Below are positions 27,054 to 44,513 of a stretch of 64,000 bases of DNA, piece after piece; position 1 is the first letter of the stretch; every line of letters begins with the position of its first letter. The stretch comes from Trichodelitschia bisporula. Lineage: Eukaryota; Ascomycota; Dothideomycetes; Phaeotrichales; Phaeotrichaceae. The notes under the pieces are model-generated. The model made no database searches. It was not told the origin of the DNA and worked only from the letters and a program-made list of their open reading frames with translations. A program made the position numbers and the translations under genes. The DNA lies in the NCBI GenBank assembly GCA_010356995.1, contig ML996688.1, positions 558,001-622,000 of the forward strand, given 5' to 3'.

Positions 27054-28720
27054 AGCTGGATCTTCAGCCTTTTTCTATCACTATTCAATTTCTAATGTCT
27101 GGGCGGTCATCTGAATTTGTCTGTTTGTTCACCGCGAGGAAGAGAATGGCGACGTTTCCTGCACCGCAATATCGGAAAAGTTACGAACCCTCCGGGGATG
27201 TTTTTATTTGATTCCCTTCGGCGTGCTTAGCAAAAAGTTAGGCAGCATGGTGTTGGCGGTCCTTGCCGCTGCGCTAGACTGTCCCGCCATCATTTTTAAC
27301 TTACGATTTTCCTTGAGTTTCCGGGTTGTAGTCTCTCAAAGAGTTTTCGGGCCTTGTGGCTCGTGCGGGTGGGTGGAGCAGGGAAGGGTTACCCTGTCGG
27401 GAGGATATCTGTTTTGTGTTTGCGATTCGGGTCGGTCGGCGGATGTTTGATATCTTTCTCACTGCATCATGCTCTGTTCCTCATTATTCATCGATGAGCC
27501 TGTTTCTTTTTCTAACAATCTAGGGCGGTTGTCTGAACTATTGTTTTTACTGGGCAAGGTTGAAGGTGGGGAAGGAGGACAAGTCTGCAATGCTGTGTAT
27601 GGGAATCTCATCACTGTGGTCGCCACCTTGCCGGGGCTGACCATGTCGGTCGTTAGGGGATCGACGGTTTTATCATCCACTGAAAGTCGCACGCGAACAA
27701 TGGCGTGGAACGCGGCTAATAAAGAATGTGATCAACTGTCCAATTTTGGGAACACGTGTGACTCCCGTCGTGCTTGTCGTATTCACAGTGATGCGCTTGG
27801 GCCGCTAGTCGGGCTGCAATTTTGGCGCACCTTCCAGACCGGTAGGCTTCACTGAAGCGACATCTATCACATGCACGCCTTTGGTGTACAACTTCCATAG
27901 GGCATAGACTGCTGGTTGATTTATTAAGCGGCCACTGTCCACATCCGTAAGCATGGCAATTCTATGTGGCTTCAAACGCTTGGTTCCAACCAGAAACTTC
28001 AAAAGTTGAGTGATGGATGGCATTCCGACAGGGTGATGCTGGGATTCTGCGCCCCAGAGGAACTTCAAGCACCACCAAGTTTATGAGCTGTTTAATACCA
28101 GCTCATATGGTCTCAGTTAGTATGATGGACCGCTTCTCAGAGATATGCCTCGCCTCTGCCTCTCATCGCTCAAATCCCGCAATCAGTCAGCGAAGCGCAG
28201 ATGTGACGGGGCATGGTTACCGGATCGTTATCTGTATTTCGAGATTTTATCAACAGTCGGTCTCGATAAGCCATAAGAAGGAAGACGTGCCGGTATTGTC
28301 CCAGCCTGTCGATTTTGTATCCCACCGTGCCCACGTGCACCCTAGCATTTTGCGGCGACGGCGTCCAGTTCTGAATGGAAAGTAAATGAAAGCGGAGGAT
28401 ATTTTTATTTCCTTACGCCATGACCCCAAAGACATGTTATCGACGCATGGTAGCTCGTGATTAAGGAGGCAAGAATGTCGCTTTGCACGTACAACATGTG
28501 AGCTGATAAATATTTATATAATCTATCCTACTGCCCTTGCGGCTCCCCAAGGTCCAGGCAGATAAACTTACAGGTACGCCCTCGATCAATCTGTGATACA
28601 TAAGCCCCGGCCCGCACACGCTTAAAACTCTAAGATAAACGCCTTACATGCGCAGCCTTAAATCCAGCCAACCAGAGAAGTAAACAATACGCACATTCTG
28701 GCCCCCACAAAGAAAGAAAA
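27054..28720. other. 3' flank of the Zn(II)2Cys6 gene and start of the gene-poor island
   Basis: The first few hundred bases are likely 3' untranslated. Composition becomes more AT-rich around 27.5-28.7 kb. The only protein-like stretch is the minus-strand relic listed separately. Confidence 0.5.
27805..28068 (-). pseudogene. Unrecognised protein-like fragment
   Basis: An 87-codon minus-strand frame without an ATG at its start (first in-frame ATG about 45 nt in). The sequence has mixed composition and looks more protein-like than the surrounding chance frames: it contains SITQLLKFLVGTKRLK, LTDVDSGRLINQPAVYALW and GVHVIDVASVKPTGLEG before its stop. A stop lies just upstream in the same frame and no splice site joining another exon was found. 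I do not recognise a family. It could be a decayed gene end, a transposon remnant or chance. Confidence 0.3.
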
Positions 28721-29503
28721 AAAGGTACACACTTGGCCTTCAAACGCCCAAGTCCAGCAAAAGAAGGGGAAACTTGCGAAAAGGCGGCCCATCAGCCCAT
28801 CAAAATCATACAGACTTTGCAGTTGAATAATATTCCCTACACATGCGTTGAACTAAATGCTGGAGGAAAACGAGCAGGCACACAACCCAAAAACATTGGA
28901 AACGGTTGCGCATATCCCAAGCCTAAAATCCATACGTTACATGTACGCGCCGCAGGCCAGCCAATCAGATGACCCTAATGCTTCAGGGAGCCCGCACAAG
29001 CTATCTTTGATCACATAAAATTTGAGAATCACACATCCAGGTTCGAGATAGCATCTTAACACCTCAACAATTATGAACCACTTGGTCTATTCGAGCCAAA
29101 CAAGTCACCTTTTATTGCCATCCATTGTAGTCCACAACGACAAAGCCTTACGCGAGGCAAGAAACTTGCTACATTCTGATATCTGATGCTGAGCTTTGAT
29201 CATGAGCCATCCACTTCCATGAGTAAATATAGACGTCTTATGCGTATTAGGATGGCGGGACCGGTGGCAAGTAGCAGCAGGATAGTGCGGCCATCAACGT
29301 ATGGGTGCACTATAGCTGACATAGTGAGCTGGTGAGCGAACTGCTAAACTTGAACTATTACGCACAACGCTCTTGAAATCCAAAACGCATATGTCACGCA
29401 CGAACCTTAATTCCACCAAATAAAACGGTGGATGCGGGCAATGTCAGTTAATCTAGGTAACCTTCCGTGCCTTCTCCCTCTTGTAAAACGCACTCAAACT
29501 ATA
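28721..29503. other. AT-rich non-coding stretch
   Basis: No open frame with protein character, RNA gene or repeat recognised. Confidence 0.5.
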
Positions 29504-29715
29504 TTACCTGTACGGCCCAGGTGCTCGCCCAGATACATACCGAGATACTCGTTGCGCAGGCCCTAACTATTATGGACCAATCAAAGAGCTAGAATTTAGC
29601 TCCGTAAAAATTTCTCTGTTTCTGCAACATATCCTAGCTCTTCGACTGGTCCATGATACGGGTACGTAGGCGACGAGTACCTAGAGCTAGGCCAGTACCT
29701 GGGCCGTACAAGGGA
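29504..29715. mobile_element. Foldback MITE, copy A
   Basis: A 212-bp element that is almost one long inverted repeat. The left end reads TTACCTGTACGGCCCAGG and the right end CCTGGGCCGTACAAGGGA. Each arm carries repeated GCCCAGGTAC-like units near the ends, and the centre is flanked by ATGGACCAATCAAAGAGCTAG and its near-complement. TA lies on the left and TG on the right, so a TA target duplication is likely, with one base changed. There is no coding capacity. Confidence 0.75.
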
Positions 29716-29813
29716 TGGCACCCATTGAAACTCGAATATGCTAATGCGCGAGCAGGCCAGCGTTATGAATGATCTCAGGGGAGAGTCCTCGTCAATGCGT
29801 ATATTTTTCACTA

Positions 29814-29939
29814 TCTCTTATACAGCCTGGGTACTGGCCCAGGTACACGCCCAGGTATTCTCCTCCACTTTTCCGCTGTTATGGACCAGTCAGAGAGCTG
29901 GGATTTGTTACAAAAATGGAGAAATCTTTGCAAAACTAT
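29814..29939. mobile_element. Foldback MITE, copy D (truncated)
   Basis: Left arm and start of the core of the same family (TCTCTTATACAGCCTGGGTAC, then two GCCCAGGTA units and ATGGACCAGTCAGAGAGCTG), preceded by TA. The right arm is missing and the sequence runs into a short (ATA)n tract at 29937-29960. It lies 98 bp from copy A. Confidence 0.6.
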
Positions 29940-29960
29940 AATAATAATAATAACAATAAT

Positions 29961-30339
29961 AGCTTGATTACGCCCAGGCTTGTTTTAGCTGGCCGTATGG
30001 TCGGGTCTCACCACTTTAGGAGTGGGTTTGACCAATTTCTTTGGTTCTACACGGCAAAAACCCTCCCTGGAAGGGTTGAGGAAAAGCCCTGGAAGTCATC
30101 CTTTGGAGAGGGGTATGTGAGCCCCACGCCTTTTACGTGTGTTTATCGTCTTTTCTTTGCACCATTATTGTGTGTCCCAAGCGAGAACTTGGCTGCACGC
30201 CGAGAAACTGAGAAACACTTCATATCCCAATTAAACCCCAAAAACGCCGAACGCCTACAGCAACGCAGATCCCGTGATTCTAGGTCATGTGATCGAAAGA
30301 GAGAAGGAGAGGAAGGAAATTGAGGAATGCCAGGTGGTG
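29961..30339. other. Non-coding stretch between MITE and LINE remnants
   Basis: No feature supported. Confidence 0.45.
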
Positions 30340-31340
30340 TCCGGAGGCCGCCAGGGGGGTGGGGCGGCTCCTCTTTGGGGCAGATCTGGTTCCTGGTAGC
30401 AAAGGTGGCGTTGAATCCGTTCTTCATGTGTGGGTAGACTGGTGTTGTTGCTAGTCCAAATATGTTGTCGTAGTATGTTGTGTTTGTGGTTGGGGAGAGG
30501 GCACCTCGGGGGGTTTGCTGCTGGGTTGGGGGACGGTGTTGACCCTGAGGACGGGGATTGGGTTCGGGCTGCGTGGTTTCGTGTGGTGAGGTCTGTGGCC
30601 TCCGTTGTATTGAGCTTTTCCAGCTCTTTTGGGGTTCCTGGGGGGTTCCGGTTGCGGGCCGTCAGCTTTGTGGTGGCTCGCTTTCATCCGGTTCCCTTCC
30701 AGTCTCGCTAGGAGATTGTGGATTTGTGAACAGTTCGTGGGGTGTGGGCGGCTTTGTTCCACATCTCGGGTTCCGATTGGCGGAATTCTCTAGCTAGCTT
30801 GAATTGGCCGATGAAGCCTCTGTTGATGATATAGTTTGTGACTGCCTCTAGACCTCTCCTAGTGTTGATCATTTTGTTGTAGTCAATCGTTCTTGCTTGC
30901 TCGTAGAGCTCATGACCATATGCTTGGATGTTTGTCGCCCAAATCCGCAGGGGCACCGGGGGGGAGTCAAATGTCGGGACTCCTACTCTGAAGAGGAAGT
31001 CTCGCAGTCCAATGCATTCAGTACGTAGTTGTGTTGCTACGGCGCTGTTGGCCTTCAGTAGTCTACCATGGAGGTTGGGGACGTATTCCTTTCAGGGGGT
31101 GTGCCAGGTTGGTGCCTGTTTGTATCCGTTGGTTCTCCACAGGGCTTCCCATTCTTGGTTCTCCCAGTCGCCGAAGATCGTTCTTGGCGCCTGGGAGGGG
31201 TCTGCCGCTGCCACGATTGCTTTCGCTTCCATGAGCGTTTTGTCTTCAGGGTATGTGGGTTCTGGGGGCAGCCCAGCATATATGATCATAACTTCATGCC
31301 TTTTCACAGTAATTAGTAAGAGTACCATGCTCAACCCTTA
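30340..31340 (-). mobile_element. Non-LTR retrotransposon (LINE), Tad-like 3' fragment
   Basis: Minus-strand frame with the end of an ORF2 of Tad type. Reading 5' to 3': a short RNase H-like tail (TLMEAKAIVAAADPSQAP), WEALWRTN, then LHGRLLKANSAVATQLRTECIGLRDFLFRVGVPTFDSP, split by one in-frame TGA after APTWHTP. Next is a zinc-knuckle region whose CPCGFGRQTSKHMV residues sit in a shifted frame. The tail is RTIDYNKMINTRRGLEAV and GFIGQFKLAREF, and the frame stops at 30708. The blocks QLRTxxIGL, CxCGxGxQTxKH and TRRGLxAV...GQF are typical of fungal Tad elements. The stretch 30340-30707 is probably its 3' untranslated region; that boundary is approximate. No 5' part is present, as expected of 5'-truncated insertion. 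Confidence 0.7.
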
Positions 31341-34300
31341 ACTTTTTTGAAGTAGTGACCGCTGGCCCTAGCGTATATGCATATTTCAAAAATGCTTTAG
31401 CAACCATTTGTAATGAAGCTTTTCCAAGTGTGCGGAACGGCGCGTGTAGTGATTATATTATCTGACAAAGGAATAACCAGACAGCTTGGGCAGAAAAGTA
31501 AAATGAAGGTTCTTTGACCCCAAAGACATGATTTGCTTGACGCGCATTTATTAACCCATACACATCCTAACTGTTTGCGTTTGTGAGTGTGGGATAGGTA
31601 TGTATCCAAGGGCTTGGCTCTTGCGTGCAATGACTCTTCCGAAAGTTAGATTTGCGCATGTCGGAGGACATTTATCATAGATAACACCATTTAGACAAGC
31701 AATGCGCCCGGCATTTTGACAGTTGACTCGATATCAAAGACTCTCTTTCTCCCTACACCATAAAGACATATATCCACATACCTCACCAACATTACCCACT
31801 GCTCCCGTACTGAGGAATTCGGCGCGCGTCCTGGGGTCTAAAGGGAGCACTTTGCACGTACCCCTACACAGCTTGATGCCGACCTCCTCTTAATTTCCAA
31901 CATATTGAACTCCCAGTTGCGATATCGGCAGGACGTGGGGGCCTTGGAATAAAGCATGGCTTATTAGAATTATCTCTATTAGACGACTAGTCTCACATTG
32001 AATGTGGCCGAGGTACCTATGAAAAAGGAATGCTCAATGTATTGCAAGCTTGGTGGAAGTAGGGGTCTTATAAAGCGCTACTGACTGGCTAACATTATTT
32101 TGCTGGTCAAAGTTCTAGACATCTGAGTGGCTCATGATGAGAGTATATATATGGTATGACAGCTTTGCCGTCTATAGGTGGAACAGTTGCCCGATCATTC
32201 CATTAACAGAATACCTCGACGAGTCTAGTCATGTGGCAATATAGTACTAGGGATAGTTTCTTTACCAACCTTAACCCTTGCTGTGGTTGTCAAAAGGAAA
32301 TATGACCGTTTCGTCTGCAATAGATTTGCGGGACAGCTATAGCCTTTTTTAACAGCCTTTCGTCCCCTATAAAGTCCACCTATGCTTTACGGTTATACAT
32401 TTAGTGTGTCAGGGGCGCACAAATCACTGGTTGCACAGCATTGGTTGTGGAATAACATTCATTGAAAGCTTGAAGAACTATGTAAAGGTTTCGCGTCAGA
32501 ATGTGGAGTGTGGGGGAGCTGGGGGTGCTAGCGCACAGGCCAGCGCCAAACCCTCACCCGGTAAGTCCAGCCGGGGCTGGAATTGCAGCATCCGGCATCA
32601 ATCTTACCGAGTCACGTGACCCATACAGGGCATGTGGCCATTTGACATGGGAGAGATGGTATCCTCCCATGACATAGTGGTCCTACAAGTGCTTTGCTTA
32701 CAACACGGCGTGAGGCTCCTTTGCTCGTCATAACAATCTAGAAGATGAAAAGATTACCGCCATGCGCCTATGCCGCAGGGGTGGATTACGACTTAGAGAT
32801 AAAAAGAGTAGAAATTTAAAAGAATCTCAGGACTACGCGCCTAACCAGTCTTACTCCGCAAGCTCTGTAGTAATTTCCAAAAGTCATGTTTCATACTCTC
32901 CCGTACTGGCTGGATTGAAAATCAGGCAAATCTTGAACAAGGTGCTATCATCCCTTGGTCAGCTTGGGTTCAAGCGCGAGTTCTGGCTGGGGCCCAGTAC
33001 GTAGTATCGTAATATTAAAAAAGCCTAATGCTAGCAGTAGGTGGTGGCTGCTACGTGTGATCAGAGTACAATAAAATGAAGTTAAAGTTACCGCACAGCC
33101 ATGTAGCAATGTTGTAAAAACCCGAGATACTTACGAAAGGGTATTGGCAAAAGTACCTACCCACTTTGGTTGAGGTACCTACCCCCCCTAAAATGTGGCT
33201 CGCTAATACCTTTATCCTATCTTTACCTTCGCCCCTTCAAAACGCCAAGCCCCATCAAACCCAAATCGTAAACTGCCAGTCGCGATGCACTCACGCCACG
33301 AAATCATGCAAAGATAAAATCAAGCTCGTTAGAATTGACTCAACGAGGCGATTGTTTTGGCACTGCTCTCGCCGCGATAGGCTATTTATATGAGTTATTA
33401 TTCAAGTTCAAAGCTTTTGCGGCTTAATGCAGCTGGATGCGGCTTAACTCGGTCTGTACCATAACCTATTAAAAGCTACAAACATCAAGGCTCCATAAAT
33501 CCTCTTCCTACAACGCCGATGCGATGATGGGGCGTTTTCCATAGGCCTAAATTTGAAAAATCTTTCAATTCTGCTAAAACGCTCTGCCCCCAATACATAT
33601 AGCTTTAGATCCCGGCCGGAAGGCCGGTCCTAAACCTTCATATCCCTATATATTCATGTTGAATAAAAGAAACCGTTCTCAGGACATGGGCCTCTAGTCT
33701 TATCTGGTAGCTAACTATCATGTAGACGTGGGCGTTGAAGAGCGGGGAGGACTTTAACAGGGTGTTTGGCTAAAAACCTCGACATGGGGAAAGGATCTCT
33801 AATCAAAGAATGCACCCCGGGCACGTCCGGGAGCATGCTTAGTTAGACGATAGTGCGTTATTTCTATATCTGGTACCAGTAAATATTTGGGCCTCATGAG
33901 GTCGCTGTTCGCTCCCTACTTCCTTTTTCTGAAGCTGTCACGTTGTGTTCAGGGCTTCCTGGCGTGCCTACGGTTGACTTCCGGCAGCGTATTCAGTGTT
34001 CGCATCCAGGTGCTCACGGGTAACGTCGGCGATGTAGTTTGCAGAAGGAGTAAAGCATGTGTGGTGAGCGCGGAATTAACCCAATATGCGCCCCAAAAGC
34101 AGGTGCTACACATCTCCTATCCCCGCCAGTCGGTGACCAGCATTTGAGAAGTGCGATCCAACCAGGTAATCGTGCCCTACAACTTCGCATCTACATGTAT
34201 AGCATAATAGCAAGTCTTGCTGCGCTTGCGTGGAGTACGACAAAAATTTAAACTACCGCTCGCCTTAAGCAAAGTTCATTGACCTATGAACCATTATCAT

Positions 34301-34892
34301 GCACTAATACTTGCGGTCGCACGAGTTTAAACTTGCCTCACGAAGACAGTAGGTTTAACCCTTCATCGAGCTCAACTCGCCCGTAAAAGGTATTTTATGC
34401 AGCTGTGCCTTAGTTTGGGCTTTTACGAGACGAACCGTGTGAGTTGCTCGTAATTTTAGAGGCACGCATCTGAATCATTTGAACAAGTGGGAAATATCTG
34501 CTCGGGTATTTCGCGGCTCGATGGTCGTATCAGAATTTCCCATGATCAGCCAGTAGTGCTAAGCTAAGAATTTGAGGTACAAGAATACTCAGAATAGTTG
34601 ATACAAAAAGAAGCTTTAATTCTGGTAATTGGTGATAGCTAAATTAACCGTATGAAAACCTGCACAATAGGGACGCCCCCATTCATAGTTTGTCCATTGT
34701 ACTGCTGACATCCCCGTTGGCGTCCTTCTAACTTCCGATATCTTTGGGGTATGGTATGGTTAATGGCGTTGTGTTTAAGGTCGGGATTTTGATGGGGTGA
34801 CTAGGCGGTGTATGGAAGGTGTGTATGCAAGGTTTTCGGGGTGTATGGAATGGTACCCCCAGCTTATCCTGATCGTTCAGGCTATGAATACG
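31341..34892. other. AT-rich gene-poor stretch
   Basis: About 3.5 kb with only short chance frames. A small hairpin-forming motif (CCGGCCGGAAGGCCGG) lies near 33614. No gene, RNA or identifiable element is supported. Confidence 0.5.
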
Positions 34893-34998
34893 AAGCGCAG
34901 GTACACGTAATTATGGACCAATTAAAGAGCTAGGATTTGTTGCAGAAACTGCAAATTTACAGAGCTAAATTCTAACTGTTTGGTTGGTCACACTAACT
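34893..34998. mobile_element. Foldback MITE, copy E (core fragment)
   Basis: Contains GCGCAGGTACACG, ATGGACCAATTAAAGAGCTAGG, TTGTTGCAGAAACT and GTTTGGTTGGTCA, matching the core of the family. Both terminal arms are gone, so ends are approximate. Confidence 0.55.
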
Positions 34999-35244
34999 GT
35001 ATGGCTTTAACGTTGCATTTGGTGCACTGCCTCTCATGCCATGTTTTTATCTACCCGAGAGATAACATTCGTGCAATGACGGCCAGGGTGAAAGGGGGGA
35101 GGCTTGCTTAGCGAGGTGCCAAGCCCCACCACCTCCTACCATCTCTACTCCTTCAGACTTAGATCCATGACAGATCGGAACACGGAGCGTACGACGGTGT
35201 GGCATGGAACCCGATGAGATGAAATATTTGAACGGTAGATATAG

Positions 35245-35252
35245 TGACGTCA
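35245..35252. promoter_or_regulatory. Palindromic TGACGTCA (CRE-like) octamer
   Basis: A perfect bZIP/CRE octamer in a gene-poor region with no adjacent gene, so function is doubtful. A second copy is at 40212-40219. Confidence 0.2.
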
Positions 35253-35349
35253 CGCAGTGCAGCAATGATGATGGGTGAACTCTCTGATGAGAGAGAAAAA
35301 GTGATTGTGGAGTTATAGAGCAAGCTATATAAGTGGAAGGGGATTTATA

Positions 35350-35870
35350 TGTGTAGAAGCGCCAAGACCCAGCGCGCTAAGCCTAATCGGGAAACCATGC
35401 CGCGGGCCGGCTCTTACAGGGAAGGTGCAAGGTCTAGACCGTTTAGCCTTGATGCCTGATACACCCACGACCTGGAGCTAGCTGACTGCCTGAAGCCCCT
35501 CGGTCTGACAGTAGAGAATGCTACGCGCGCAACCAAACGGCTCAAAGGCGCACGTAAGGGAAACATCACGAAACCCTTTCCATACTCTCTGGGCGCGTCA
35601 TGGGCGCCTTCCCATGTCACTATGTACTTAACTAAATACAAGATGACCACCAGGTACTCTAAGGCTTTTGAACCCAGACTCGCGCTCACTTCTTTTCCAT
35701 TTGCCGCGAGGGGCGTACGACGCCCCGGAGCCCTTGCGTACATAATCAGACGTATCTACACGAGCACCATCGTGCCTCCGGCGGGGATGCCATGGGTTAG
35801 CTAGGCGCGCTGCGCCCAGGGACGTGGGCCGTCTGTCGGTTAAACCCAAGGATATCAACCACTAATCTAT
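35350..35870. other. GC-rich patch with imperfect inverted ends, nature unknown
   Basis: About 500 bp clearly richer in GC than its flanks. The minus strand keeps a 109-codon frame (35414-35743) and an overlapping 76-codon frame in another register, neither with a known domain. Near its ends, CAGCGCGCTAAGCCTAA (from about 35370) and the complement of TTAGCTAGGCGCGCTG (ending about 35812) resemble each other, hinting at terminal inverted repeats of a non-autonomous element. No clean target duplication was seen. It could also be a captured gene fragment. Confidence 0.3.
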
Positions 35871-36103
35871 TTCTTTTGCTTTTGGTTAGCGCATCACGTG
35901 TTGCGAGTTTAAAATTAAAATTGGTAGGGTATCGGCGCTAACACTGGCCAAAGGGGTGGCGTGTAGCGTGAACTTCAGCGTTGGCATCTCATAACTTTTA
36001 AATTCTAAGCTTGCATACGCGATACACACACGAAAAGAAGATGGTTTAATCTTTTATTTATCATTGGCTTGAGCTATCAAGCACCCGCTCTGGTAGCGGT
36101 CTA

Positions 36104-36315
36104 TCCCTTGTACGGCCAAGTCAACTGCCCAGGTACACACCCCCAGCTACTTGCCCAGGCTGTCATTAAACAATTAAAGAGCTCTGATTAATTACAGAAA
36201 CTGAGAATCCTTTACAGAACTAGACTCTAGGTGTTTGACTGGTTAATAACAGCGATTTGTGCCTGGACAAGTACCTGGGCGTGTACCTGGGCCATTATGT
36301 GGGCCGTACAAGGGA
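36104..36315. mobile_element. Foldback MITE, copy B
   Basis: The best-preserved ends: TCCCTTGTACGGCC on the left and GGCCGTACAAGGGA on the right, a perfect 14-bp terminal inverted repeat, flanked by TA on both sides (36102-36103 and 36316-36317). Length is 212 bp, as copy A. Both arms carry spaced CCCAGGTAC / GTACCTGGGC units. Confidence 0.8.
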
Positions 36316-36317
36316 TA

Positions 36318-37317
36318 GAATCATAACCAAGGCGGAGTTAAAATTGGGTATAGATGCGGGTAGAAGAAGGGACTCCTATTGGCCATGCATTTCTGAAGGT
36401 TCTAAACCGTCCTTGGCCGCTCGTAGGAGGGTGACAAGTGTAGGAAAAATGGGGGCGCTTATGTAAAGTAATTCCTAAAGGCTTATAGTTAGTAGTAGGC
36501 TTGAGAATTAATTGGTACGTATGCTCCCAGGCTCTGTTATTTTACAGATCCGAAATCGTACAACGCCAAGTTCGCTCAAGATATGATGAACACTTTGGTC
36601 CGCGCATTAGGCGAAGGTGCTTCAAAACCCAGCCGAAAGGCTTTTTTCCACTTTGGTTTTCACTTCAGAGTCATTGTTCTTATGCTTCATGAATGGGCTT
36701 GTTTGCTAGCTAGCACATTTGGATGGACCGTGCGGCACCATAACGGGACGAACTGGGTATCCAGCGCGGTATCTTCTAAGGAAGCTCTTTTAGGCGTGCA
36801 ATAGTCCCATGATCTTTATCGTCTCTAGATGGACACCTGAGATTCACCCCACCCCAACCCCCTTCACGCCCCCCTCCCCCAGGAGGACTGCCAATCAAAA
36901 ATCATGTATACTGTGAAATTGCTTGACTAACACCTCCCATCTTGCAGTTGAAGATTATAGTCATACATTTAGTTCGATTTTCCCAAATAAACTGACAAAC
37001 CCCCTTATGCCGTCAACAGAATTCCGATGATAGCAGGAATCATCCTAACTCATCAATGTCGGAGTGCATTGCGAGTTGAATGTTTAACATTTTTGTAACT
37101 TTCTGAGGAGAAGGCTTAGCCGTAACCAGGGAAAATGCCAAGAAATCTGTCAACCTTTGCGATAAGACAGCTTTCTCGTTGTTCGCGACGAAAAATAAGC
37201 TGAGTTGCTCATCGCGGCAAGGTGATTCTGACAATCTAAAATGGCTAACCAGGTAGGAGTGTGTATTTACGCGGTAAAAAAAATACAACGTCACGCACGC
37301 ATGTATTTCCAGACCAT
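36318..37317. other. AT-rich non-coding stretch between MITE copies
   Basis: No credible gene. The longest open stretch (36583-36804, plus) is 73 codons without a domain. Confidence 0.45.
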
Positions 37318-37536
37318 CCCCTACACTGTCAGGTACTTGCCGGGGTAATTTCCCAGTTACTCGCCTAGGTACTCGCTATCATAGACCAATCAGAGAGCTA
37401 GAATTTTGCTCCGTATTAGTTCTGTATTAGTTCTGTATCAGTTCTGTAAAGAGTTCTTGATTCTGCAACAAACCCAAGCTCTTTTATTTGTCCATGATAA
37501 CGAGTACCTGGGCCAGTACCTGGGCCGTACAAGGGA
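37318..37536. mobile_element. Foldback MITE, copy C
   Basis: About 219 bp. The right end GGCCGTACAAGGGA is intact and followed by TA; the left end (about 37318) is degenerate. The centre has an 11-bp unit (TATTAGTTCTG) repeated three times, which explains the extra length. The core ATAGACCAATCAGAGAGCTAG and its partner TTTATTTGTCCATGATA are retained. Confidence 0.7.
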
Positions 37537-38445
37537 TAAGAAATTCTACTCCCTGATTGATCCGCCAACCAGGGTGAACCCCCGCTTTAAGACCCTTTTG
37601 TACCCCAGCTTGAACCTTAGCCGCTCAAGGGATACCTAGTACAAGATGAATGGATAGCCAGACAGTAGCAATTATTTCACACACACTTCCCTAATACTTA
37701 AGCTACACACCTGCCATGCACGCACCTCTAACCAGTCAGTCGGGCGACGTAAACTTCTCTTTCACGAGATACGCGCCCATTTAGGAAGCATTGCCACGCT
37801 CCAGTCCACATAAACTTTGTGGTTGAGTACCATTTCCTGTGGGTGCCTCCGGGCAACAAATAGTTGGACTACCCATCGGATGAAGGCGATTTAAATGAGC
37901 AATCTCTAACATTAATATACTCATGCCGCGCATTACCTTTCTGCTGCAAGCTTGAATTTGAAATTATGATGGGAACTCGCCATTAACTGTAAGGGAGAAT
38001 GTATGGTAGGGGGTTGTTCCGCAAGACAGTTCGGTCGCCGTTGAAAGCCATGCGTCCGAGAAGAATGCGAAACACATGCTTCCTAAATTGTATGCCAGAA
38101 AGGAGCTGACGAACTACCGTTCGTACGTCTCATGCGTCTCTCAAGGTGCGCTTTTACAGAGCGAGCAACGTCACTTCTTCGAATATTAGTGGACAGATGT
38201 ATCCAGTCATGTTTGTCCGATGGGGCATCGAGCCTTGGTTTGCACGCCCGGCACTCTCGGTTCCCGTTCCAGCGGCCTTGATACACCTTTCAACGCTACC
38301 AACGATCTCTTGATGCACTTTGAATTTCGCTTTTAGAAAGAATATATGATGACTATTGCCCCCCTTACACTTGCAACCTCTCAAAGGCATTACATCCTTC
38401 TAGACGGCCCGCTGCAGCCTTGATACACATGATGTGGAGTGCAGA
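37537..38445. other. Non-coding right edge of the gene-poor island
   Basis: No supported gene. It includes the 3' flank of the RGS gene, whose stop is at 38446. Confidence 0.45.
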
Positions 38446-39852
38446 TTAGTAGAAATTTCCCTGGGGTAAGGCGCAAAAGATGCCCGTGCCGAGTATGGAG
38501 ATTGCAGAGGCGAGCAGGAGGGCTTGCAAGAAGATGGTGTCTTGAATCTGGCGCAAAGCTGGCTCCTCGATCCACACCTCGCGGTCAAAGATCTTTCGTA
38601 CAATGTTACGTTGATCGTATTTGGCGACCCATGGCTCATCCTCGTAGCTGTTTGAGCACAAATTCTCCTGGGTGGCCCAGTCGTCATCATATTTAAAATC
38701 GTCCCCTGAAAACAACTCCCATGGACGAAGATGCCGGCGGTGCAGACCGTGTAGTACCTGTTAAGTTAGCAGAACCACCAAATTGTTTGAATCAACTGAC
38801 CACACACATCCCCTTCCATGCAGCAACGAGCGTACTTATTCCTACCATGAACGGAAGAAATGCCATGACGCGCCACTGTCGGCTGGCAGCACTCAATGTG
38901 ATGAGGACGCCCGTAAGCAGCCCGGCCGAGATGCAAGTTACACCGAGGCCGCGAGCAAATGTTACACGAGGCCTATTGCCATTACAGATAGCCCATCGCA
39001 CAAAATTCGGGTGCGTCTGTGAGCGGAGGCTCCACTCAACGGTCTCAACGACGACCCGAAATGCTGATGGGTGCGTAGTAACCTCAAGCGCGCGAAGGAG
39101 GGACGACCGTTCGCGGGACGAGAGATTCAGCTGGCGGGGCGCACCTTCTGCAACGTAAAGCGCAATGATGCGGGAGATCTCTTCCCGGTAAGGTTGGATG
39201 GTAACTGTGGTTCGAAGTCAGGTTCATACCGGCGTTTTGGAGGTGCCGCTTACAAGGCTGAACGCATCCGGCGTCCTCAAAAGCACCCTCCGCTTGACGT
39301 GAAGTCACCGAGTCTACTGCACTCGTAGGTGACGCGAGCCGTGCGAGATCCCGCACGCTTGTATCGGTCGCTTGGGCGTCACAGAAGGGATCGGAGGCGA
39401 CGTCAAGTCTTTGCGCCTTGAGGATTGCTGCAGCTTCGGTGGCCAGTGAGCCGTTCTTGTAGGCAGTTCTATGGGCGACTTCGGTCTGCTCGCGGGTCCA
39501 CTCCGGGGCTAACTTGCGCTCATTCTCGGTTAAGGCCTCAAACCTGCCGGCGAAGTCTTTGAACCAGAGGAAAAATTGTAGATTTTCGGCCGAATGCTCA
39601 ACGTACTTTGCGAAGTGCATAAAGTCTCGGGCCGTCATAGGCTAATGCAATTAGCTATTGGGCTACAGACCGATTGGCGACAAAAAATACAGGACAAGTT
39701 CCGCCTGCAATAATGCGGTCAAAGGACAGGGCCTCGGGAATGCCACGAGGCAAGATGGAGCGAAAACCAGTCGTGGGTCGTGATGCATCGGAAAGTGACG
39801 CCTTGGGGGATAGCACGCGCGCTGGGCGTCTGTAACTCAGTGAGTACGCCAT
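38446..39852 (-). CDS. RGS-domain membrane protein
   Basis: Regulator of heterotrimeric G-protein signalling of the fungal type with an N-terminal RGS box and C-terminal membrane segments. Exons (minus): 39852-39691, 39641-39254, 39204-38801, 38757-38446; introns 49, 49 and 43 nt; about 421 aa. RGS box about 35-245: IPEALSFDRIIAGGTCP, PMTARDFMHFAKYVEHSAENLQFFLWF, then after the second splice FTIQPYREEISRIIALYV and LEVTTHPSAFRVVVETVEWSL. Two hydrophobic helices follow (about 268-288 and 296-312), the conserved SNSYEDEPWVAKY and REVWIEEPALRQIQ, and a last hydrophobic helix near 398-415. Each junction restores the family sequence. The start at MAYSLSYRRP is likely but not certain. It is the nearest minus-strand neighbour of the peroxisomal trio; no functional link is evident. 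Confidence 0.88.
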
Positions 39853-40979: not shown

Positions 40980-41981
40980 CTACAGCTTTCCCCATCCCAT
41001 CAGCCGCATAGGTCGTCCATCCGTGCCGCTGAGCGAACCCGCGTCTATGTTGATCGTCTGCCCCGATATGTATGATGCCTCGCGGGACATGAGAAACAGA
41101 GCCAGATACGCAACTTCCCACCTAACACTCTCGTTAGCCATCAATCAATACCCTAATTTTGCCTACAGAACTGGATCAAAGCTGATGACATACCCGGTTG
41201 CCTGCCGCCCAAACGGCACTCTTGCCGCTCGTCCTTTCCGGTGTCGCGAGGCATCTCGCCCCAAGGGGGTATCGACGTAGCCCTGGACATGTCCCTGATT
41301 AATAATACCTTTCGAGTCCTTCAATGACAAACTTACTGGAGCAATGACATTTGCTCTCACGCCCTGTGGCTCTCCCGCCCGTGCAACAGCTCGTACCAGA
41401 GCCATCTGTGCTGCCTTGGACGTCTCGTAGGCCGGATTCCCACTATTGGCCCGCAGTCCTGCCATGGATGACAGAATGACTATAGACGCGCCCGGATCCA
41501 GGGTTTGAAGGGAGCTCTGCGCAAAGAGCATATGGCTCCTCACATTGACCGCAAACTCATCATCCCATGATTCCCTCGTGATCTTGTGCAGCGGCAGGCC
41601 TCGTGATATACCAACGACGAGCACCAGTCCGTCCAGGCCTCCGAGCGTGGCTTTGGCATCGGCTACTGCCTTAGGTATGCCGCTGGCATCGCGCACGTCG
41701 AAGATGTATGGGTAGGCCTCGCCCCCTTCCGATCGAATTTGCTGAACAGTGGCCTCGGCAGCCTCGCGAATTACGTCGAGACAGACGACGGCTGCGCCTT
41801 CCCGCGCGAAAAGAGTCGCAATGGCACGGCCATTGCCAATTGGGGGATCCGCATCAACTATCTGGCGTTGGCCGGCGCCCACTATCAGAACCTTTCTCCC
41901 CACAAGTCGCTTGTTAGACTTCGCCTTGCCGATCGTCTCTGGAAAGACGGAAGATGCTGCGTCAAAATCACTTGGTGCCAT
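40980..41981 (-). CDS. Short-chain dehydrogenase/reductase
   Basis: NAD(P)-dependent oxidoreductase, about 291 aa. Exons (minus): 41981-41337, 41282-41194, 41121-40980; introns 54 and 72 nt. The Rossmann start is unusual for the family: VLIVGAGQRQ, a short insert, then PIGNGRAIATLFAREGA. The cofactor loop is thus longer than the classic TGxxxGIG. VCLDV follows the second strand. Catalytic residues: Ser in VILSSMAG and the YETSK pair (Tyr-x3-Lys). The second exon starts GYVDTPLGRDASRHRKGR, and the tail is WEVAYLALFLMSREASYISGQTINIDAGSLSGTDGRP. The last residues are GKL, a weak variant of a peroxisome signal. Divergent from the AhpD/CMD gene with 226 bp between start codons. Substrate unknown. 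Confidence 0.9.
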
Positions 41982-42207
41982 GATTCTGCGATCAATCGTG
42001 TAGGTTCTAGTCAATTGCGACTGGAAACGCAGTGGCTGAAGTTCGCTGCAAATATGAACATGCATGTCGAGACCTCGGCTCTGCTGTATACCCCTCACAG
42101 CTGCTTCCTCAACCACGGCGCCTGGGGCTCCGAGCATTTAATATTTACTGTCATCCAGACTCCTTATTAGAATCATTTCCCCCGCAATCCTAAGAGATTC
42201 CCCAAAC
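41982..42207. promoter_or_regulatory. Divergent promoter, dehydrogenase / decarboxylase-like genes
   Basis: 226 bp separate the two start codons, so both genes probably share this promoter and may be co-regulated. No specific operator is identified. Confidence 0.6.
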
Positions 42208-42832
42208 ATGAGGCTTCCGTACGTATCCAACCCGCCACAGTTCGCCAATGCCGAGCACCAAGCGTTCGTGGAGCGCCTTCTCAAGGCGCGCGGCCGCCAC
42301 AGCCTTTCCCCGCTCGACCTGACGCTACTGCACTCGCCGCCGCTCGCACGCGGCTTCATGCAATTCTTCACTGCAATCCGCGGCAAAACTACCCTTCCGG
42401 CCGACATTCTCGAGCTCGCCATGTGCCGCGTCGGTGCGCTCAACGGTGCAGCTTTCGAATGGATGCACCACATGCCCCTGCTTAAAAAGGCGGGTGTGAG
42501 CGACGAGGGCATTGAGACGGTCCGGACCGCAATCGTTCACCTCACCGGCAAGCCGGGTGAAAAGGGGTTGGACGCGCGGCTCTGGGCAGTGATGAACTAC
42601 GTTGACGTCATGACCAAGGACGTCCAGGTCCCCGACGCGACGTTCGATACGCTCAGACAGATACTCGACAGCAGGCAAATTGTTGAGCTGAGTGAGTACT
42701 ACCGCCTAAAGATGCCACCGACTCATGTATGCAGCCTTGACCATTGCGGGGTATAATGCCGTCTCGCGCTTCCTCATAGCCTTGAACGTTGCAGAAATGA
42801 GAAACACCAAGGTCGGCGATGCAAAGTTGTAG
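42208..42832 (+). CDS. Carboxymuconolactone decarboxylase / AhpD-like protein with peroxisomal AKL end
   Basis: About 193 aa, a common length for single-domain members. Exons 42208-42691 and 42735-42832, with a 43-nt intron (GTGAGT to GCAG). The core resembles the CMD family: ELAMCRVGALNGAAFEWMHHMPLLKKAGVSDEGIETV, an alpha-helical fold shared by protocatechuate-pathway decarboxylases and AhpD-type peroxidases. The CxxC redox pair of AhpD is not evident (one Cys in MCRVG), so a peroxidase role is unlikely. The second exon reads TIAGYNAVSRFLIALNVAEM, and the protein ends in AKL, a canonical C-terminal peroxisome signal. Without splicing the protein would end early and lose this signal. It converges on the acyl-CoA dehydrogenase gene. 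Confidence 0.9.
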
Positions 42833-42963
42833 ATATAAAATCGGACAGAACCAAACCTCTAATCGCACGCGGGAACAAAACGGCGTGACGTTAACGGCGT
42901 GACGTTCACGGGACATCTTGGTATACATACACCGGCCAAAACTCCATAATTTTCCAAAAGAAT

Positions 42964-44513
42964 TTACAACTTGGAGGTGCCAGCACTCACACGCCCAAGA
43001 TACAGAGGATCCACGCGCTCGAGACCGTACTTGCGCAGCAACTGGTCTGCCTTCACCCGCTGGGCTTCAAGCTTTTGCTGGACAATCTTGAAACGCTTAT
43101 TCTCATTCTTACCCAGCTGCTGCTGGTGTACCTCCTTCGGCCCGTCGACGATGTGAAGCGTGCGGCTGTTGGCGTACATCTTGGCGAGCGGCGTGTCCTG
43201 GCAGACACCAGCACCGCCGTAGGCTTGGATGGCGCGGTCGAGGGTGTGCAACGTCGCATCCGGCACCAGAATCTTGGCAATGGCAATCTCCTTGAGCGCC
43301 GATTTGGCGTCGCCGTTATCAATGGCCATGGCGGCATTGAGCACGACGAGACGGGCAGCGTCAATCTCAACGCGGGACTCAGCAACGCGCTGTATCATGA
43401 CACCGTGCGAAGACAGAAGGGCGCCAAAGGGCTTCTTGCGTTCGTCGTTGATGCGGGCGAGGAAGTAGTCGAGAGCCTTCTCGGCCTAGAAACGAACGTC
43501 AACATATGGCATTTCAGGAGATGCACCGAACTTACGACACCGACGGCGCGCATCGCGTGGTGGATGCGGCCCGGGCCGAGACGGCCTTGGATGATGTCAA
43601 AGCCGCTGCCGGGTTGCAGGACGATGTGGTCGAGCGGGACGCGCACGTTCTTGAAGGTAATGTGGCCATGGCCGTGCGGAGCATCGTCGTAGCCAAACAC
43701 GGAGAGCATGCGGTTGATGGTGATGCCTGGGGTGTCGGCGGGGACGAGAATGACGGACTGCTGCTTGTACTTGTTCGAGTTGTTGGGGTCAGACTTGCCC
43801 ATCACGAGGTAGACCTTGCACCGCGGATCGCCAGCACCGCTGCTCCACCATTTCTTTGTCCGTCAGCCAGAGTCTTCTAGTTACGCAGGGGCCGCACATA
43901 CTGAGCCGTTGAGCACCCACTCGTTGCCATCGCGGCGGATGTTGAGCTGAATGTTGGTCGCGTCGCTGGACGCCACTTCCGGCTCCGTCATCAGGAAGGC
44001 AGAGCGGATCTTGCCCTCGAGCAGCGGGTCGAGCCACTTGCGCTTCTGCGCCTCAGTGCCGTACTTGGCGAGCACCTCCATGTTGCCAGTGTCTGGGGCA
44101 GCGCAGTTGCAGGCCTCACTGGCCGTTTGGCTCTTGCCCAGGTACTCGGCCATGAGGCCGTACTCAAGGTTGCTGAAGCCAGCGCCTTCCTTGAAGTGGT
44201 TCCTCGGCAGGAACAAGTTCCACAAACCAAGCTTCTTCGCCTTGGCCTTGAGGTCCTCGAGGACGGGAGGGTGCGCGCTGAAGCGTTCCCCAGCTGTCTG
44301 GCCGAGCTGCTGGAAGAAGACGGTATCGGCAGGGAGACATTCTTCCTCGACAAACTTCTCAACCTAATTGCGAGTGTTAGATCTGCAGCTATCATAGGGT
44401 TTACAAGGCGTAAATCTCACCAGGTCGAGAGTCTTTGCAGCGCGGTCGCTGACAAACGGCCGCGCAATGGCGGGAATGCGCTGCGAGGCGGTGAGGTTCA
44501 GAGCCGGGGCCAT
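42964..44513 (-). CDS. Acyl-CoA dehydrogenase, ACAD10/11-like, with peroxisomal SKL end
   Basis: FAD-dependent enzyme that makes 2-enoyl-CoA from acyl-CoA; about 464 aa. Exons (minus): 44513-44421, 44363-43902, 43853-43536, 43485-42964; introns 57, 48 and 50 nt, all in phase 0. N-terminal helical domain with [13 protein letters not shown] and [12 protein letters not shown]; central [17 protein letters not shown] and [15 protein letters not shown] (FAD/substrate region); C-terminal [16 protein letters not shown] and [15 protein letters not shown], which are hallmarks of the ACAD10/11 branch. The protein ends GTSKL, so it should be imported into peroxisomes. Fungal peroxisomal members of this family may replace acyl-CoA oxidase for special substrates (inference). 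It is tail to tail with the CMD-like gene, 131 bp apart, and divergent from SLX4. Confidence 0.93.

Follow-up and report, generated by a model that had tools for sequence, protein, structure and literature searches.

Do three adjacent enzyme genes in the dothideomycete fungus Trichodelitschia bisporula encode a single peroxisomal pathway, or do they lie side by side by chance? The genes reside within a 64,000-nucleotide stretch of contig ML996688.1 (assembly GCA_010356995.1, positions 558,001 to 622,000 of the forward strand), the whole of which is hereafter called the window. They encode a short-chain dehydrogenase/reductase (SDR), a protein with a carboxymuconolactone decarboxylase (CMD) domain of the AhpD-fold type, and a member of the acyl-CoA dehydrogenase (ACAD) family. 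An initial annotation, made from the sequence, proposed that this trio combines acyl-CoA dehydrogenation with a ring or beta-keto acid step in one peroxisomal pathway. Our analysis leads to a different chemistry for the ACAD, probably phosphate elimination, and makes it plausible that the three proteins serve one peroxisomal route whose substrate would be a substituted 4-hydroxy or 4-oxo acid. The individual parts of this block have known relatives, and their three-part combination is a new variation.

The SDR gene occupies positions 40980..41981 on the reverse strand and encodes 291 amino acids in three exons (introns 41336-41283 and 41193-41122), with LMGWGKL at its C-terminus. It is divergent from the CMD gene (42208..42832, forward strand), whose two exons (intron 42692-42734) encode 193 amino acids ending in KVGDAKL, and the 226 bp from start to start (41982..42207) represent a candidate shared promoter. 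The ACAD gene follows at 42964..44513 on the reverse strand, with four exons (introns 44420-44364, 43901-43854 and 43535-43486) that encode 464 amino acids ending in SAGTSKL; it is convergent with the CMD gene, with a stop-to-stop gap of 131 bp (42833..42963). The adjacency, coordinates and arrangement given in the initial annotation were borne out, and both of its spacings proved exact by recount. Pfam domains are adh_short/adh_short_C2 for the SDR, CMD (PF02627; 34.6 bits against a cut-off of 23) for the second protein, and Acyl-CoA_dh domains for the third. Two of the three proteins carry a canonical peroxisomal targeting signal of type 1 (PTS1), namely SKL in the ACAD and AKL in the CMD protein.

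Gene models were built by enumerating GT-AG introns, which gave several options, and by selecting among these for splice-site form and family fit. The SDR and ACAD models were restricted by script to GKL and SKL ends, and thus the scripts provide no test of those ends. The stop codons of all three genes were verified in the letters. The SKL of the ACAD is the close of a long open exon, and the final SDR exon runs on from a conserved SYISGQTINIDAG stretch. The AKL of the CMD protein requires one of three intron options, which is the one that restores the family-conserved Y168-N169-R173 stretch.

The ACAD and its bacterial neighbourhoods

The closest solved relatives of the fungal ACAD are three ACAD11 sequences and 4hr3 (a putative acyl-CoA dehydrogenase), with scores of 381-388 bits. 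Its 388 bits to ACAD11 compare with 139 bits to SCAD, the next class. Residues R626, H634, R637 and D753 have been tied to the ACAD10/11-LvaC subgroup and to 4-phosphoacyl-CoA (PMC12440821). In an alignment to solved ACADs, once a uniform shift of one between the two numberings is allowed for, they correspond to R276, H284, R287 and D405 of the fungal protein, and thus the Arg-His-Arg helix and the catalytic Asp are shared with ACAD10, ACAD11 and LvaC, which form the same sequence subgroup. The motifs R.GPGR.HH.MR and DGPDE are kept in all 40 usable bacterial homologues. Judged by these residues and scores, the fungal ACAD very likely belongs to the ACAD10/11-LvaC class.

In ACAD10/11 systems, 4-hydroxyacyl-CoA is phosphorylated and the phosphate is then eliminated, with the ACAD step requiring no added electron acceptor, and ACAD11 supplies peroxisomal beta-oxidation (PMC11342911). 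The fungal enzyme is probably a redox-neutral phosphate eliminase acting on 4-phosphoacyl-CoA rather than a classical dehydrogenase. The ordinary acyl-CoA dehydrogenation of the initial annotation is probably wrong, and we dropped it because the four diagnostic residues point to the ACAD10/11-LvaC type, for which phosphate elimination is likelier. An acceptor-independent reaction would also account for an ‘acyl-CoA dehydrogenase’ being active in the peroxisome. ACAD11-like enzymes can matter in fungi, as is evident from an R. toruloides mutant of an ACAD11-like gene that does not grow on ricinoleic acid (PMC5922974).

The fungal protein contains ACAD domains only. It lacks the N-terminal kinase domain of the eukaryotic ACAD10/11 fusion, and in this respect stands alone like LvaC. 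In Pseudomonas putida, the lvaABCDE operon brings together an SDR (LvaD) and an LvaC-type ACAD, as does the fungal block; it further encodes a kinase, LvaB and a CoA ligase, whereas a CMD protein is not mentioned for it in the portion of the source available (PMC6692424). The lva-type set of kinase, ACAD and SDR is incomplete in the fungal block, since one bacterial APH query found no kinase in the window. The fungal SDR also falls outside the clade of ACAD-adjoining SDRs in a tree that does not include LvaD itself.

Bacterial neighbourhoods of this ACAD type were evaluated among 249 genomes in the family of Roseomonas sp. KE0001 (G010), where matches with E-values of at most 1e-100 were found in 75 genomes at 77 places. 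Forty of these places form the ACAD-centred set, from which G010 and a second genome, G485, were excluded. An APH-type kinase lies within 5 kb of the ACAD in 31 of the 40 loci and in none of 39 control windows, and an SDR lies within 3 kb in 18 loci compared with two control windows; the controls are hand-picked positions on contigs of CMD-bearing genomes, not random draws. Because some windows end at contig edges, these counts represent minima, and the relatedness of the genomes means that the events are not independent. Within this one bacterial family, an ACAD10/11-type gene, an SDR and an APH kinase form a frequent compact set (L202-L218), and these loci are candidate 4-hydroxy/4-oxo acid operons.

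The SDR and the CMD-domain protein

The fungal SDR carries the classical features of its family: a Gly-rich motif with an insert (VGAGQRQIVDADPPIGNGRA; GNGRA at 49), a Ser (SSMAG at 171) and YxxxK (YETSK at 185, with Y185 and K189). Asp69 follows strand 2, from which we infer, by the usual rules for this position, a preference for NAD. A profile search of genome contigs with an SDR alignment produced 268 relatives, of which 80 were kept, with best-segment identities of 34-66% (the 66% being a partial hit); identity to bacterial relatives is as high as 62% along the greater part of the protein. An 81-row tree of the fungal SDR and bacterial SDRs places the fungal protein inside a clade of close bacterial relatives with support of 86/93, which is below the starred class of that tree. 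Its branch is long and the placement was flagged as unsure, and acquisition by horizontal transfer would be a fair guess. Close relatives at two loci of Bradyrhizobium and kin (L007 and L014) adjoin genes for a DUF1993 protein and an OYE-type flavin oxidoreductase, the names at L007 being given by likeness to the Pfam-named genes of L014. At L007 these genes take the place of a nearby CMD gene, so that partners of more than one type occur in this SDR clade.

A CMD-family gene is a recurrent partner. Such a gene lies within 2.5 kb of the SDR in 36 of the 80 SDR loci, and the density of CMD hits is 0.104 per kb near the SDRs versus 0.0029 far from them. In the reciprocal direction, an SDR match of at least 50 bits lies within 3 kb of the CMD gene in 34 of 67 CMD loci, compared with 2 of the 39 control windows. 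These 67 loci comprise all 24 places of one family-wide search, 39 of the 68 places (mostly the best-scoring) of another, and four others; a class-wide CMD search gave a match in 2 of 274 genomes. The CMD gene is on the same strand as the SDR gene in 34 of the 36 pairs (16 upstream, 18 downstream), and the two divergent pairs are both from Mycobacterium (L069 and L074), where the SDR match is separated from the CMD match by 198 and 113 bp, respectively. Plasmid searches gave the first examples of the pairing: an SDR, a receptor-like gene and a CMD gene lie in a row in C. metallidurans CH34 and in Variovorax PDNC026, and a divergent arrangement was noted for Mycolicibacterium madagascariense and for plasmid locus L004. 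Bacterial pairs thus resemble the fungal one in placing the same two families close together, sometimes divergently, and some include a TctC-type receptor. They differ in being mostly on one strand and in lacking PTS1.

On this evidence, the SDR and the CMD protein are likely a functional pair of the kind seen in bacteria. The pair recurs across alpha-, beta- and actinobacterial loci, and our literature search found no description of it. Within open-licence literature, no recognised description of either the trio or the pair was encountered, a result that does not establish absence in print. Nothing on the trio was found for the terms sought in the main text of a Histoplasma peroxisome proteome or in two yeast peroxisome papers, nor in the available portions of work on A. 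oryzae under levulinic acid, on Fusarium ACADs and on A. nidulans on suberin. A profile scan of genome contigs with the CMD protein gave no match, and viral contigs scanned with the ACAD and CMD proteins contained no stray fungal contigs.

What might the CMD protein do? It retains R28, R58, E69, E84, H88, Y168, N169 and R173. Three of these residues (E69, E84 and H88) are invariant across 62 bacterial homologues, and the CxxC redox pair is absent, with residues 79-88 reading NGAAFEWMHH; this combination argues for an acid-base enzyme rather than a peroxidase. If the protein were instead an AhpD-type peroxidase that guards peroxisomes, with neighbours that are incidental, an AhpD fold would be expected, and indeed a structure model predicts this fold. 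The model (18 rows, pLDDT 94; nearest entries 2gmy, 7xw1 and 2ijc) is that of a bacterial homologue from locus L093 of Roseomonas sp. KE0001, not of the spliced fungal protein. A PDB sequence search with the fungal protein placed armadillo-repeat proteins on top, which were read as repeat artefacts, and returned the AhpD-like entries 2o4d, 2ijc, 7xw1 and 2gmy. However, the missing CxxC pair led us to reject a peroxidase identity, which has very little probability.

The PF02627 match also raises the prospect that this protein is the gamma-carboxymuconolactone decarboxylase (PcaC) of the beta-ketoadipate pathway and that the block is an aromatic-degradation cluster, and the TctC-type receptor at L093 would fit organic acid uptake. 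However, the sole NCBIfam match is NF053654, a YciW-related model, which scores 42 bits where the cut-off is 310, and PcaC identity was rejected because no equivalog-level match was obtained. In addition, dioxygenase, cycloisomerase and lactonase domains are absent from ten window frames scanned (not an exhaustive set), and the PcaC-like step of R. toruloides is tabulated without PTS1 (PMC7873862). We regard the aromatic explanation as highly improbable. The CMD protein is probably an acid-base enzyme that uses Glu and His, being neither a peroxidase nor, by NCBIfam, a PcaC. PTS1 proteins with CMD domains do exist in fungi, as exemplified by yeast Pxp2 with its putative CMD domain (PMC10906886), which resembles our protein by description only and is set apart by an additional mitochondrial signal. 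The molecular function of Pxp2 is unknown, and strains that lack it show impaired growth on oleate and ethanol (PMC7217942). At L098, this CMD type occurs in a further CoA-linked setting: a CMD gene of the same subfamily resides by CoA-transferase-like, ACAD-like and enoyl-CoA hydratase-like genes (each named by likeness), and the locus also contains an APH-kinase match.

One route or chance neighbours

The initial annotation held that unrelated neighbours are unlikely to end in PTS1 by chance. By the composition of 11 window proteins or frames, a canonical [AS][KR][IML] end has a chance of 0.003, and two neighbours with such ends of approximately 9e-6. Eight other window frames show no such end, although several of these are not full gene models. 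True PTS1 rates are above the expectation from composition and a genome holds approximately 10^4 gene pairs, and therefore one such neighbouring pair per genome would be unsurprising. An end of the form [SAC][KRH][LM] occurs in none of the usable bacterial relatives, which number 62 for the CMD protein (of 67 loci), 40 for the ACAD (of 43) and 78 for the SDR (L007-L084, the two weakest SDR loci being excluded). Measured from the median end of the bacterial proteins, the fungal CMD protein is 7 residues longer, the ACAD 34 and the SDR 10, and residue 190 is reached by 10 of the 62 bacterial CMD homologues. Signals on extended tails argue for function in the ACAD and, less strongly, in the CMD protein.

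The best support for a three-way link, thin as it is, comes from three bacterial loci. An ACAD10/11-type gene (at least 250 bits) lies within 5 kb of the CMD gene in 3 of the 67 CMD loci and in none of the 39 controls, and an APH-family kinase is present in all three (L093, L114 and L156). The first two loci contain the complete trio. At L093, one strand carries in order a CoA ligase (Succ_CoA_lig plus ATP-grasp), an ACAD (54% identity), an SDR, an APH kinase whose match ends 84 bp before the CMD match, the CMD gene, two further SDRs and a TctC receptor. Beyond the ligase, the opposite strand carries a zinc-type alcohol dehydrogenase. The same genome also contains the CMD-search locus L065. 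L114, in G485, begins with genes that resemble a ligase and an alcohol dehydrogenase, followed by an ACAD (53%), an SDR, an APH kinase and an SMP-30 type gene, and continues on the other strand with an SDR and a CMD gene. L156 has a CMD gene, an AMP-binding ligase, an ACAD and a kinase, with no SDR match. Their content indicates that a 4-hydroxy-acid gene set can include or adjoin a CMD protein.

Several observations weigh against a single route. The trio is rare in bacteria, occurring in none of the 80 SDR-centred and none of the 40 ACAD-centred loci (2 of 42 if G010 and G485 are added). No CMD gene was found within 6 kb of the ACAD in the ACAD-centred set (0/40; controls 0/39), and an ACAD of any type is no commoner near CMD genes (5/67) than in controls (2/39). 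Forty-four of the 80 SDR loci have no nearby CMD gene (29 of the 44 are titled Bradyrhizobium by manual count, and some of the 44 are short contigs), and the CMDs adjoining the closest SDRs may belong to a subfamily other than that of the fungal protein. SDRs that adjoin bacterial ACADs form a clade (100/100) different from that of the fungal SDR. A search of the window with one bacterial APH query found no kinase (best E 0.15). Finally, the AKL of the CMD protein is preceded by an acidic residue, and the GKL of the SDR is not a canonical PTS1, falling outside both the canonical and the relaxed formulas and inside a wider plant formula only (PMC12316961). The PTS1 proposal of the initial annotation thus stands for SKL and AKL, whereas the SDR end is weak, and its import into the peroxisome is a guess with about even or lower odds.

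These findings leave considerable room for the explanation that two units without any relation happen to be adjacent, in which a divergent SDR-CMD pair has its own function, an ACAD10/11-type gene is a chance neighbour, and the two PTS1 ends also coincide by chance. An ACAD of some kind is present at 14 of the 80 SDR loci (25-29% identity), but none is of the ACAD10/11 type, the best match being 117 bits at 28% identity. Likewise, 64 of the 67 CMD loci have no ACAD10/11-type gene within 5 kb, CMD genes are missing from all 40 ACAD loci, and the convergent ACAD and CMD genes need no common control. Opposing this explanation are the adjacent canonical PTS1 ends, with their low expectation by composition, and the trio loci L093 and L114, the first of which has an operon-like order. 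We consider it a serious contender, to be held at somewhat less than an even chance.

The proposal that all three proteins act in one pathway is likewise tentative and somewhat less likely than not. Two canonical PTS1 ends and the repeated occurrence of SDR-CMD pairs in bacteria speak for it; the non-canonical SDR end does not, and the single pathway claimed in the initial annotation is unproven. The gene models, protein families, diagnostic residues, targeting signals and bacterial pairings are shown here, and from them we suggest the following reactions, order and substrate. A hydroxy or keto acid would be processed as its CoA ester in the peroxisome, where the SDR, if imported, may interconvert alcohol and ketone with NAD and the CMD protein might catalyse a decarboxylation, an isomerisation or a lactone step. 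The 4-hydroxyl would be phosphorylated by a 4-hydroxyacyl-CoA kinase encoded elsewhere, and the ACAD would eliminate the phosphate to yield an enoyl-CoA for beta-oxidation. This reading as a whole, in which hydroxy or keto acids are broken down in the peroxisome as CoA esters with a kinase elsewhere, the SDR-CMD pair and a single route, falls just short of an even prospect.

A more specific version is speculative and, in our estimation, unlikely to hold in full. It envisages a fungal peroxisomal entry route for substituted 4-hydroxy/4-oxo acids. The substrate would be prepared by an SDR-CMD pair of bacterial type, and an ACAD11-type enzyme without a kinase domain, served by a kinase encoded elsewhere, would feed beta-oxidation, with L093 as the prokaryotic counterpart and at least the SDR being bacterial in origin. 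If true, its SDR-CMD step would be one that is absent from the described Lva and ACAD11 routes. The proposed route offers testable functions for two orphan kinds of protein, fungal peroxisomal CMD-domain proteins and kinase-free ACAD10/11-type enzymes.

Surroundings of the trio

Other genes in the window encode Slx4, striatin, a UFD1-type protein, a GYF protein and a protein with RRM and R3H domains; together with the short introns, these neighbours fit a filamentous-fungal chromosome. A compact cluster containing oxidoreductases could also be part of a secondary-metabolite cluster rather than a catabolic one. However, a synthase-type domain is absent from the ten window frames scanned (not an exhaustive set), and the flanking genes (Slx4, striatin and UFD1-type) are housekeeping-like, which makes this alternative most improbable.

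Positions 28001-38000 have a GC content of 45-50%, compared with mostly 52-60% elsewhere in the window, and few long frames. The TpA/ApT ratio is near 1.0 over positions 32001-38000, and inverted repeats of 43-47 nucleotides occur at 29811, 36100 and 36272-36277. This part of the window is perhaps a decayed, mutated repeat region that adjoins the trio. An open frame on the reverse strand at 39084-39641 resembles an RGS-domain protein by eye only.

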